Shown in pieces: positions 1,938-37,710 of a DNA stretch of 37,710 nucleotides. Position 1 is the stretch's first letter, and every line of letters begins with the position of its first letter. The stretch covers positions 1 through 37,710 of the forward strand of contig JABSPG010000008.1 of the NCBI GenBank assembly GCA_013214445.1. The letters run 5' to 3'. The notes below the pieces were generated by a model. That model ran no database searches. It was given only the letters and a program-made list of their open reading frames with translations, and was not told the DNA's origin. The stretch is from Ekhidna sp. (lineage in GTDB: Bacteria > Bacteroidota > Bacteroidia > Cytophagales > Cyclobacteriaceae). Made by a program: the position numbers and the translations under genes.

Positions 1938-4523
1938 ATGGACTATAAAAAGCTGTTAGAGTCAAAAATCAAACTAGCTGAAAAAGCTGGTTTTGAAATT
2001 CAAAAAAATGACATAAATCCGATTTGTAAACCTCACCAAGCCGACATTATTAAATGGGCGGTACATGGAGGTCGAAGGGCTGTTTTTGCCAGTTTCGGAC
2101 TAGGTAAAACGGTTATTCAAATTGAGATCGTTCGGATTATATCACAACTCAAAAGTGGTAATGCTTTGATCGTGTGCCCTTTAGGAGTAAAGCAAGAGTT
2201 TATAAGAGATGGCCGTATGCTAGGTATTGAGCAAATCCAATACATCACGCATAGCGATCAGGTAAGAGATAATTGTAAGTACTATATCTCTAATTATGAG
2301 CGCGTCCGTAAAGGTGATATTGATCCTTCAAAGTTCATTGTGGTAACCATGGATGAAGCCAGTATTTTACGCGGGTTAGATACTCAAACCGTGGACATGC
2401 TCATGCACACTTTTAAGCAGATCCCTTACAGATTTGTCTGCACGGCTACACCTTCTCCAAATCGCTTTTTAGAGCTTACCCATTATGCAGACTTTTTGGG
2501 AATTATGGATAGAGGTCAGATCTTGACGCGCTTTTTTCAACGCGATAGCACAACGGCTGGAAACCTGACATTATTTCCAAAAAGGGAAAAAGAGTTCTGG
2601 CACTGGATGGCTAGCTGGGCTTGCTTCATTACCAAACCTTCCGACCTTAGACACGATGATACGGGCTACGACTTACCTGATGCTGACTTTCAAAGACATC
2701 GGATTACATTCGATAGAGATCCGATCATTGATAAAAGAAGTAATCAGGTTGAAATATATGCTAGTGCGTCAAAGTCATTAGGAGATGCGGCAAAGGAGAA
2801 GCGCGACAGCTTGCCTCACAGACTTTCTAAAGTGGCTGAGATCATCGAAAATGATCCAGATAGTCATTATGTGATCTGGCACAACCTAGAATCCGAACGT
2901 ATAGAGCTTGAAAAGCTTTTGAACGGTAAAAATTGGGTATCTGTTTACGGTTCCCAAACCTTGGATAAAAAGGAAGGTGGTCTGATTTCATTTTCAGAGG
3001 GTGAAAGTCAATACCTGATAACAAAGCCTACTATTGCAGGATCAGGATGCAACTTTCAACATCATTGCCATAAAGCCATATTTATGGGTATTGATTACAA
3101 GTTCAACGACTTCATTCAAGCAGTTCACCGTATCTACAGATTCATGCAACTACATCAAGTTGAGGTGCATATTATTCATACCGATGCTGAGGATGACATC
3201 ATGAAAGCTTTGGATCGCAAATGGGGTGACCACAAAAAGCTTCAATCAGAAATGACTAATATCATCCAAACTCACGGTCTTAATTCAGAACTATACAACA
3301 CAGAACTAAAAAGAGACATGTTTTCAGGACGCCAAATCAAAGTCGGTAAAGATTGGACAGCGATCAATAATGATAATGTTCAAGAGATTGTGAATATTGG
3401 GAGCGATTCAATAGGTATGGGTGTAACTTCAATACCTTTTGGTAATCACTACGAATACTCAGAGAATTACAACTGTTTTGGCCATAATGAAACAAATGTA
3501 GATTTTTGGAAGCAAATGGAGTTTCTGACACCTGAGCTTTACCGTGTGCTTATGCCAGGTAGAATCTTTGCAATACATGTTAAAGATCGAATCAGATACA
3601 GCTATCAGAACGGTGCAGGGTTCACGGATATTGATGATTTCACAGCGGACACTTCTAACCACTTAACAAGAAAGCATCTGCTTGAAAAGATCGACGCTTT
3701 CAAAGTGTTGAATGAAAAACTGAAATCAGATGAGATTGCAAAAGAAATTGAAGCAATGCAAGCTGATTATGACAGTTGGCATTTTCATTTATTAGGTAAG
3801 ATTACAGTAACTACGGACGTAGTACAGGAAAACAACCAGACATACAGGCTCGGTTGGTCGGAAAAATGTAAAGACGGGTCAAAGATGGGTGTAGGCTTAC
3901 CCGAATATGTGTTATTATTCCGAAAGGTTCCTACTGACACATCTAATGCGTATGCTGATGATAAGGTCGAAAAAAGCAAAGATGAATACTCCCGTTCAAA
4001 CTGGCAGCTTGATGCTCATTCTTATTGGAAGTCAGGCGGTGAAAGGTTAATGGATAGCTCACAGCTTGCTAGGATGGGACTTGATAATGTCCTAAAGCTT
4101 TGGAAGAAAGTAGAATCGAGCGGTGAGTATGATTTTCAAAAGCATAAAATTATCTGTGAAAAGCTGGATGAATTAGGTAAGCTTCCGACTACATACATGG
4201 CCGTTCCTCCTATTAGCCAGAATGAAGGAGTATGGACTGATATTGTAAGAATGAAAACATTGAATTCTGATCAGAAAAGAAAGAACCTAACAAAGCACAT
4301 TTGCCCTCTCCAGCTCGATCTGATCGAAAGACTGATTAACAGATACAGCAACAAAGGCGAAACAATATTAGACCCATTCGGCGGTATTATGTCGGTTCCT
4401 TACCAAGCTGTCAAGATGGGGCGTAAGGGTATAGGTATTGAGCTAAACAGCGAATATTGGAATGATGGAACTAAGCATCTTAAATCATTAGAGCAAAAAG
4501 CGGCTACACTATCACTTTTTTAA
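1938..4523 (+). CDS. SNF2/DEAD-type helicase fused to DNA methyltransferase
   Basis: N-terminal ATPase motifs (SFGLGKTVIQIE, VVTMDEAS, CTATPSPN), C-terminal MTase motifs (TSIPFGNHYEYS as motif IV-like; LDPFGGIMSVPYQAVKMGRKGIGIELN as motif I-like). Confidence 0.85.
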   Translation: MDYKKLLESKIKLAEKAGFEIQKNDINPICKPHQADIIKWAVHGGRRAVFASFGLGKTVIQIEIVRIISQLKSGNALIVCPLGVKQEFIRDGRMLGIEQIQYITHSDQVRDNCKYYISNYERVRKGDIDPSKFIVVTMDEASILRGLDTQTVDMLMHTFKQIPYRFVCTATPSPNRFLELTHYADFLGIMDRGQILTRFFQRDSTTAGNLTLFPKREKEFWHWMASWACFITKPSDLRHDDTGYDLPDADFQRHRITFDRDPIIDKRSNQVEIYASASKSLGDAAKEKRDSLPHRLSKVAEIIENDPDSHYVIWHNLESERIELEKLLNGKNWVSVYGSQTLDKKEGGLISFSEGESQYLITKPTIAGSGCNFQHHCHKAIFMGIDYKFNDFIQAVHRIYRFMQLHQVEVHIIHTDAEDDIMKALDRKWGDHKKLQSEMTNIIQTHGLNSELYNTELKRDMFSGRQIKVGKDWTAINNDNVQEIVNIGSDSIGMGVTSIPFGNHYEYSENYNCFGHNETNVDFWKQMEFLTPELYRVLMPGRIFAIHVKDRIRYSYQNGAGFTDIDDFTADTSNHLTRKHLLEKIDAFKVLNEKLKSDEIAKEIEAMQADYDSWHFHLLGKITVTTDVVQENNQTYRLGWSEKCKDGSKMGVGLPEYVLLFRKVPTDTSNAYADDKVEKSKDEYSRSNWQLDAHSYWKSGGERLMDSSQLARMGLDNVLKLWKKVESSGEYDFQKHKIICEKLDELGKLPTTYMAVPPISQNEGVWTDIVRMKTLNSDQKRKNLTKHICPLQLDLIERLINRYSNKGETILDPFGGIMSVPYQAVKMGRKGIGIELNSEYWNDGTKHLKSLEQKAATLSLF

Positions 4524-5678: not shown

Positions 5679-6512
5679 ATGAGTCAAGATAATGCATATT
5701 CAATCACGCCTTACACGGTGTTATCAGATAATAGATTAACCTTCGCATCCAAGTGCCTATACGGTGTTATACACAGCCTAAGCAATGGCAGAAAATGTAC
5801 CGCAACAAACAAGTATTTAGCAGATGTTTTGGGTACGAATATCAAGACAATTCAAAGATCTTTAGACCAATTATTAGACCTAAAATTGATTAATAGAGAG
5901 GTCAAAAACGCATGCAAAAGAGAGTTGATTTGTACTGTAAGATCCGAAAATACCCACCCCGAAAATGTACCTACCCCCAAAATAGGGGTACCCCCAAAAT
6001 GTACTAAGGGGGTAGGACAAAATGTACTAACCCCCCACCCCGAAAATGTACCAACCCCCCTAGGACAAAATGTACCAACAGATAATATATTAGATACTAA
6101 AGTTGATACTATAATTGATAAAAAAAGTAAGAAGCGCACAAAGTTTATCAAACCTACTAAAGATCAGATCAGGGAGTACTTCACTGAGCTAGGATTGAAC
6201 GGGCAATCTGAAAGTTTAAGCGAACGATTCTACGACTACTACGAATCCAACGGATGGAAGGTTGGACGCAATAGCATGAAGGACTGGAAAGCGACTTGTA
6301 GAAACTGGAAGAAAAACCAAAACCAAACGCAACAAAAAAATGAAACCAATAAGCGAAATAACCGAGAATCTCACCAATACCGCACGGGAGACTTTGACGC
6401 AGAACTCAACGCACGCGCCGCCGAATGGATCAACGCAGGAAAGCCCATCGAAGAACTTCAGGAAATCGTTAACCGAGAATATGAAGAGCGCCAAAAAAAA
6501 GCAGTATCGTAA
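5679..6512 (+). CDS. replication initiator-like protein with N-terminal winged helix
   Basis: ASKCLYGVIHSLSNGRKCTATNKYLADVLGTNIKTIQRSLDQLLDLKLI wHTH; central (E/Q)NVPT repeats encoded by iterons; followed by DnaC-like gene. Confidence 0.75.
   Translation: MSQDNAYSITPYTVLSDNRLTFASKCLYGVIHSLSNGRKCTATNKYLADVLGTNIKTIQRSLDQLLDLKLINREVKNACKRELICTVRSENTHPENVPTPKIGVPPKCTKGVGQNVLTPHPENVPTPLGQNVPTDNILDTKVDTIIDKKSKKRTKFIKPTKDQIREYFTELGLNGQSESLSERFYDYYESNGWKVGRNSMKDWKATCRNWKKNQNQTQQKNETNKRNNRESHQYRTGDFDAELNARAAEWINAGKPIEELQEIVNREYEERQKKAVS
5962..6075 (+). repeat. iteron-like direct repeats AAAATGTAC (candidate replication origin)
   Basis: Exact AAAATGTAC at 5962, 5996, 6019, 6043 and 6067 (last four spaced 23, 24, 24 nt), interleaved with C/G runs; one outlying copy at 5792. 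Confidence 0.7.
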
Positions 6513-22420: not shown

Positions 22421-22457
22421 AAACAGGGGTCTTACATCGTAGTGAATACCCCTGTTT
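22421..22457. repeat. perfect 10-bp inverted repeat between the two minus-strand genes
   Basis: AAACAGGGGT (22421-22430) / ACCCCTGTTT (22448-22457), 17-nt loop. Confidence 0.8.
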
Positions 22458-22485
22458 GTTAATTGTTAATTGTTAATTGTTAATG
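22458..22485. repeat. heptanucleotide tandem repeat (GTTAATT)x~4
   Basis: gttaattgttaattgttaattgttaatg; overlaps stop codon of the minus-strand gene. Confidence 0.9.
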
Positions 22486-22925
22486 TACCATTCAAGTACT
22501 TTGTCAAAAAGTACTTGAGTGTAATCAAGTGACTGCCTCATTTCATTGACTACCTTAACGTAATTTTTAACCGAATCAGGACTGCAATACTCAGGGTATA
22601 ATTCATTTTGGACATCAGTTAAATCTACAAAACGCTTTCCTTTTTGCAGGGTAGGACAATAATCCACAAAGAATCCTGAGTACGTCCAATCGCCATCTTT
22701 TGACCCGTGGTGGCTATTTGGGTAAACGGTTATCCGAATCTTTGATCCCATAACATCGAAGCTATCATCCCGCCCTAATAAGATCTTATTAACTACCAAA
22801 CCTTTGTTGGCTTGATATTCTTGCATTCTTCGGGCGATTTCCATCTGTAGATCCACCATCCAAATAGATAGAGTTTGCCACTCTTGTACCATTTCTTCCC
22901 ACTCTTGCCTTGTTGTGTTTTTCAT
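22473..22925 (-). CDS. minus-strand accessory protein of unknown function
   Basis: 150-aa ORF with own promoter; leader AACACAAGGAAATGAAA also found upstream of 35789 gene. Confidence 0.65.
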   Translation of the reverse strand: MKNTTRQEWEEMVQEWQTLSIWMVDLQMEIARRMQEYQANKGLVVNKILLGRDDSFDVMGSKIRITVYPNSHHGSKDGDWTYSGFFVDYCPTLQKGKRFVDLTDVQNELYPEYCSPDSVKNYVKVVNEMRQSLDYTQVLFDKVLEWYINN

Positions 22926-37233: not shown

Positions 37234-37617
37234 ATGAACATCAATGATTTGACAATTGGACAAGTAAAAGAGATTCAAGCTTTGTTAGGCCAATCTCAAG
37301 CGCCTGAATCAGATTTTTTCAGCAAGTGGATAGGTAAGTATGTTATTGCTCGATCATACAATGAAGGCGTGCTTTTCGGAAAGGTGCTTTCATGCAATGA
37401 GTCAGGATATGAAATGGAAAGTGCGAGGCGCTTGTATTATCATAAGCCTTTAGATACTTCTCTAAGTTGGTATGAAGGTGTAGCTCAAAGTGGACTTGCT
37501 CATGGATGCCGTGTTTCGAGCGAGCAGCATAAAGTGGTAATTGAAAGGTATTCATTCACTGAATGCTCACAAGCTGCTATTGATAACATTTCTAATTACG
37601 AGACTCATGGACAATAA
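37234..37617 (+). CDS. small conserved-looking phage protein (possibly DUF6948-like; not verified)
   Basis: MNINDLTIGQVKEIQALLG ... IGKYVIARSYNEGVLFGKVLSCNESGYEMESARRLYYHKP...ERYSFTECSQAAIDNI. Confidence 0.55.
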   Translation: MNINDLTIGQVKEIQALLGQSQAPESDFFSKWIGKYVIARSYNEGVLFGKVLSCNESGYEMESARRLYYHKPLDTSLSWYEGVAQSGLAHGCRVSSEQHKVVIERYSFTECSQAAIDNISNYETHGQ

Positions 37618-37710
37618 AGGGTATAAATACGGCAACGGCAACGGCGACGGCTACGGCTACGGCAACGGCAACGGCAACAGCCACGGCAACGGCTACGGCT
37701 ACGGCAACGG
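37607..37710 (+). CDS. Gly-rich low-complexity protein, truncated by window end
   Basis: ATG 37607 overlaps previous gene by 11 nt: MDNKGYKYGNGNGDGYGYGNGNGNSHGNGYGYGN...; no stop before window end. Confidence 0.6.
   Translation, partial: MDNKGYKYGNGNGDGYGYGNGNGNSHGNGYGYGN
37628..37710 (+). repeat. (NAC GGC)n hexanucleotide tandem array
   Basis: About 14 units; only the first base of NAC varies (T A A G T T A A A C A T T A), one GGC->AGC. Confidence 0.9.

Follow-up and report, generated by a model that had tools for sequence, protein, structure and literature searches.

Glycine alternates with tyrosine or serine in the low-complexity (GX)n repeats of silk fibroin and in the [G/S]Y domains of FUS-like proteins. 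Glycine-rich repeats of another kind, GGFGGQ, are functionally important in the Hfq protein of A. baumannii (PMC11617691). For DUF6948 (PF22253), the Pfam entry covers the domain alone. The searchable literature, which leaves subscription papers outside its reach, contains no mention of DUF6948, nor of GDGSGYG-like strings in a phage protein. The initial annotation of the locus described here knew of no characterised system of this type, and in keeping with that no description of a DUF6948/Gly-X pair was found in the same literature; the pair is apparently undescribed.

The window (the whole stretch of DNA that was analysed, 37,710 nucleotides) is the entire contig C776 of an Ekhidna sp. assembly. 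The features of concern are:

37234 to 37617, + strand: DUF6948 (PF22253) gene, 127 aa, with a predicted Sm/LSm-like beta-barrel and helical insertion (Pfam, AF2, Foldseek against the PDB)
37607 to 37710, + strand: 5′ part of a (Gly-X)n ORF, whose ATG overlaps the DUF6948 stop by 11 nt and which runs off the contig (sequence, overlap geometry, arrangement in relatives)
37629 to 37710, + strand: NACGGC hexamer array, 13.7 copies (Tandem Repeats Finder, pattern against shuffles)
1 to 15, + strand: probable 3′ end of the (Gly-X)n ORF, K-G-K-R-stop, in the event of a circular contig (sequence, with a putative junction)
58 to 909, + strand: RecT single-strand annealing protein, the next gene downstream if the contig is circular (Pfam RecT, E 1.3e-45)
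915 to 1655, + strand: YqaJ-type exonuclease, in one recombination module with RecT (Pfam YqaJ, E 3.3e-11)

The hexamer array and the contig ends

The 6-bp units of the array show 88% matches. The pattern GGCNACGGCNACGGC, with at most one mismatch allowed, occurs 11 times in the window and all 11 occurrences are inside the array, where shuffles give an expectation of 0.01. The ATG at 37607 opens MDNKGYKYGNGNGDGYGYGNGNGNSHGNGYGYGN, and the frame is unclosed at the window edge. A single unit deviates, with AGC replacing GGC to give N-S-H; the 14 variable bases had been listed correctly in the initial annotation. Its view that this is not ordinary codon choice also holds. Array codons 8–34, 27 in succession, all end in C, which has a probability of ~10^-11.9 under the codon use elsewhere in the window; in the other window genes GGC makes up only 25% of Gly codons, and AAC, TAC and GAC account for 46%, 49% and 36% of theirs. 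The array is present once in the 4.9-Mb, 925-contig assembly, with no other occurrence.

The window has other repeats and a composite ORF as well. A 7-bp unit, TTGTTAA, is repeated four times without error at 22456–22484, at the end of the sole minus-strand gene-like ORF (22473–22925), and imperfect 17–24 bp repeats resembling CCCCCAAAATGTACCAA are found at 5944–6079 within the gene at 5679–6512, where they encode a PENVPTP-type repeat. One ORF at 1938–4523 combines an SNF2/helicase-like N-terminus with an N6_N4 DNA methylase C-terminus (Pfam).

The first 15 bases of the window, AAG GGT AAG AGA TAA, encode K-G-K-R-stop and are a plausible end for the Gly-X ORF; RecT and then the YqaJ exonuclease follow. 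From this terminal peptide we infer that the contig probably represents a phage genome of 38 kb, circular in form, which the assembler would have opened within the array, upstream of RecT/YqaJ. An early stop just beyond the window, or an assembly artefact, had been raised as possible objections to the array, and these are answered in part: complete relatives carry arrays of 53–97 residues, and a second draft contig (from genome G1056, locus L037) likewise breaks off inside its own array.

A two-gene module in unrelated phages

The product of the 37234–37617 gene is a member of DUF6948 (Pfam E 1.9e-10; 41.2 bits against a curated cut-off of 27). The association was followed in phage, plasmid and genome records, with a second N. 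gonorrhoeae record among the search results left out. A Gly-X array directly adjoins DUF6948 in 16 of 16 phage records that match the family, i.e. Iodobacter phiPLPE (two records), Vibrio IKEMa6-1, seven Pectobacterium phages, Dickeya phage Setonix, Chlorobiaceae CV-1-33, two Manatee Spring phages and two gut contigs. The same arrangement is found in all three copies on one Neisseria gonorrhoeae chromosome, and in Monoglobus, Ningiella, a Desulfovibrionaceae MAG, G395, G1055 and G1056; the Neisseria, Monoglobus, Ningiella and Desulfovibrionaceae loci are prophage-like. The sole DUF6948 located without an array (G1101, L038) is a truncated gene that spans 58 of 85 positions. Over 13 loci totalling 100,763 bp, the Gly-X runs (21/21) lie at most 370 nt from a DUF6948 gene and none is found elsewhere. 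DUF6948 is rare (2 of 398, 1 of 369 and 4 of 349 genomes), and therefore the linkage is not background. Beside a GGCTAC repeat in one further genome (G067, L007), nothing DUF6948-like was seen on brief reading.

Absence of a Gly-rich ORF downstream of homologues of the 37234 gene was among the findings that the initial annotation would have taken as a refutation; the opposite was observed, as such an ORF accompanies every intact homologue examined. It is near certain that DUF6948 and (Gly-X)n constitute a conserved two-gene module across unrelated phages and several bacterial phyla. The record that carries the three Neisseria copies (NZ_CP119142.1, L026) is listed in PLSDB as a ‘plasmid’ of 2.17 Mb, but is evidently the N. 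gonorrhoeae chromosome with three prophage-like copies of the module.

The order of the two genes is reversed at L011, where the array comes before DUF6948, and thus strict gene order is not required. In gut relatives, the array constitutes the N-terminus of a larger protein with a C-terminal domain. This uncharacterised domain (...FAHGETLREA...LTGSC.MGR..F...) is C-terminal to the Gly-X array in gut phages and in Monoglobus, and the same FAHGETLREA-type domain is found behind a leucine-rich stretch instead of a Gly-X array in Riemerella phage CRP6 (coordinates L021:2276–2797, L023:2267–2836, L027:4276–5037 and L028:3809–4417). Its low-complexity or repeat N-termini are interchangeable.

Wherever the usual order holds, the start of the array and the stop of DUF6948 overlap by 4–23 nt, in all lineages, and most array starts have an AGG/GAGG Shine-Dalgarno-like site 5–12 nt upstream. 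Since the overlaps occur in either relative frame, re-initiation is a better explanation than frameshift. A frameshift fusion of DUF6948 and the array is disfavoured on these grounds and by the range of overlap lengths. The overlap would couple translation such that both proteins are made together, and co-expression with the upstream protein, as proposed earlier, finds support in the overlapping and apparently coupled ORFs of all lineages.

The start overlap and the Shine-Dalgarno-like sites also fix the Gly-X reading frame. Forward (Thr-Ala)n and reverse (Val-Ala)n frames were taken seriously because all variation in the window array would be synonymous in them. Both were rejected, on account of the fixed Gly-X frame and because neither is conserved in relatives, where the second base of the X codon (X2) and the synonymous positions of Gly change; the forward (Thr-Ala)n frame in addition has no start codon there. 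Two deposited annotations (L020:2286–2531 and L011:1505–2077) use the wrong array frame, with MAMALA-type ORFs that mask the Gly-X protein.

Most genes next to the module are recombination genes or early genes. RecE is found in Iodobacter and Ningiella, an exonuclease VIII-like gene in Vibrio, an exonuclease with Erf at L011, a RecT-like gene beside an exonuclease at L030, Gam in Neisseria and Monoglobus, and SSB and RusA in Monoglobus; the Neisseria module adjoins a repressor and a replication-initiator gene. The Pectobacterium copies adjoin an annotated tail-fibre gene. This last position, together with a strict Gly alternation like that of silk fibroin (GX)n, is what might be expected if the Gly-X protein were a silk-like or collagen-like structural or adhesive component of the virion. 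Such a role is improbable, however, given that the module of most lineages, that of Neisseria included, is in a recombination/replication region. Of the adhesive or condensate-like peptide that the initial annotation envisaged as a possible role, a virion adhesin is likewise disfavoured by this position.

Conservation and turnover of the array

Glycine is every second residue in all arrays, and array length is usually 50–100 residues. Over 15 lineages, X is polar or aromatic in 427 of 439 units (97%); Ser (133), Tyr (114), Asp (90), Asn (53) and Phe (14) are found, and His, Glu and Lys also occur. The hexamers that encode this peptide are GGC-NNC in Iodobacter, Vibrio and Pectobacterium, GGC-NNT in L011, Chlorobiaceae and Ningiella, and GGG/GGA-NNC in L022, with mixed codons in Monoglobus. 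As different codons yield one peptide in different lineages, the sequences point to selection that acts on the protein: it is residue type, not DNA sequence, that is kept.

Non-modal bases at hexamer positions 1–6 number 0, 0, 48, 155, 153 and 31, i.e. positions 3 and 6, the synonymous ones, show much less variation than positions 4 and 5, and most of it is in two lineages. Near-fixed synonymous sites next to a varying X are expected if unit copying outpaces point mutation and X is selected. The recent expansion with nucleotide-level homogenisation that was initially suggested is thus supported, since synonymous sites are nearly fixed in most arrays. The companion suggestion of a repeat that matters in its DNA or RNA form needs correction, in that conservation is not at the DNA level only. 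Were the peptide incidental and the repeat a recombination hot spot, a binding array for annealing proteins or exonucleases, or an mRNA structure, the strong homogeneity of the hexamers with their fixed third bases and the location beside RecT/RecE/Erf would be readily understood. The lineage-specific hexamers for the same peptide, the narrow choice of X, and the retention of reading frame, start codon and Shine-Dalgarno-like site all speak against this, and it can be given little credence.

Ymer and Amona, two Pectobacterium phages, do not differ at all in the 1182 bp before the array ORF and the 607 bp after it, yet the arrays themselves are 73 and 67 residues long and differ in order, and others span 53–89 residues; these genomes were obtained from Illumina reads with metaSPAdes (PMC11445585), and the array differences could therefore partly be assembly error. 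A comparison of near-identical phages, as had been advised, thus does reveal differences in array length and order. On the single Neisseria chromosome one of the three array copies differs from the others (97 vs 95 aa). Turnover is far quicker in the array than in its flanks. To judge by the differences, units have apparently been gained, lost and shuffled, with selection on X in addition.

Rapid changes in length between near-identical phages are also what a dispensable repeat would display, one that expands neutrally and hitch-hikes behind DUF6948. Yet the same composition and the coupled start recur beside DUF6948 in several phyla, and array loss was seen in none of the intact loci examined; this explanation is very improbable. 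The ‘targeted variation’ of the initial annotation is correct with respect to rapid variation, but not with respect to a targeted mutator. A diversity-generating retroelement that would turn AAC codons in the array into NNC was considered, as only the first two bases of the NNC/NNT codons vary, and the variable repeats of such elements likewise vary there. RVT_1 is absent from five complete phage genomes and from contig C776, and the two reverse-transcriptase matches of the window's assembly sit on other contigs (C414 and C246). Nor is there a second repeat copy that could act as template in six complete phages with pattern-detected arrays or in the window's assembly, and the residues that random NNC codons would bring (Ile, Val, Leu, Ala, Pro, Arg) are nearly missing from X. 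Only a trans-acting element outside the phage would still allow for a retroelement, the probability of which is close to nil.

A putative Sm-like protein and its partner

An AF2 model of the window DUF6948 protein based on a 3-sequence alignment has a mean pLDDT of 71.4, with the five models spanning 44–71; the single-sequence prediction has a pLDDT of 38. The best 50 Foldseek matches of the 3-sequence model in the PDB all come from Sm/LSm-containing complexes, with E values of 0.02–0.1, query TM scores of at most 0.42 and probabilities mostly >0.8, and its best viral structure matches are other DUF6948 proteins. With hmmsearch, the DUF6948 profile retrieves no Sm proteins from the PDB by sequence, and an hhalign comparison with E. 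coli Hfq is not significant (P 0.73). No function was returned by the profile against PDB, NCBIfam and PHROGs. An Sm/LSm-like fold is thus suggested by the models and serves as a lead.

The reading we prefer, with a probability of roughly 0.45, is that DUF6948 is Sm-like and binds nucleic acid, that it is produced along with a disordered Gly-X partner, that the two act in early phage DNA metabolism, and that the array turns over by slippage or recombination. DUF6948, if it folds as modelled, would have RNA or single-stranded DNA as its ligand and would probably be oligomeric. The Gly-X chain may be a disordered sticker-and-spacer partner in trans, with Tyr/Phe as stickers and Gly/Ser/Asp/Asn as spacers. 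By analogy with the cis-attached Gly-rich tails of some Hfq proteins, it could make the assembly of DUF6948 multivalent and tunable while early DNA metabolism of the phage is under way. Slippage or unequal recombination would expand, contract and shuffle the array, and selection would retain Gly at alternate positions and a polar or aromatic X. A more specific proposal, that the co-translated pair forms a tunable assembly that organises early recombination/replication, with unit turnover as the tuning, is tentative and somewhat doubtful.

The small overlapping bicistron in an early region, and the hypervariable array in an otherwise identical context, can also be looked at as signs of an arms race, where the Gly-X protein is a decoy or inhibitor directed against the host or its defences, or forms, with DUF6948, a pair of the toxin-antitoxin type. 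The substitution of a leucine-rich stretch for the array before the same C-terminal domain in the Riemerella phage would be in line with this. All lineages share one narrow array composition, however, unlike typical arms-race proteins, and no defence-related genes were recognised among the neighbours (without a PADLOC scan); a role of this type is unlikely.

Present across phages of several phyla, the pair is a direct handle on DUF6948 and on the role of simple Gly-rich disordered proteins in phages. The fast evolution of the array under a strict amino-acid grammar provides a natural experiment on selection upon low-complexity sequence. The array also accounts for contig breaks and for wrong gene calls, the alternative-frame MAMALA-type ORFs, in phage assemblies.

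Retroelement variable repeats come with a reverse transcriptase and a template repeat; the module has neither, and its residue set is restricted. The nonapeptide periodicity of RTX proteins (GGxGxDxUx) is not seen on reading the arrays. Collagen-like phage proteins have Gly at every third residue (Gly-X-Y), whereas the array has Gly at every second. Compared with silk fibroin and FUS-like domains, the array is Asp/Asn-rich, short, phage-encoded and without Ala. A. baumannii Hfq (PMC11617691) combines an Sm-like core with a Gly-rich low-complexity repeat, as is proposed for the module on the basis of the models, although the Sm fold of DUF6948 is predicted only and the sequence comparison is not significant. 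In Hfq the repeat is attached in cis; the module, carried by phages, encodes it in a gene of its own that overlaps DUF6948, and here it is strictly (Gly-X)n and hypervariable.
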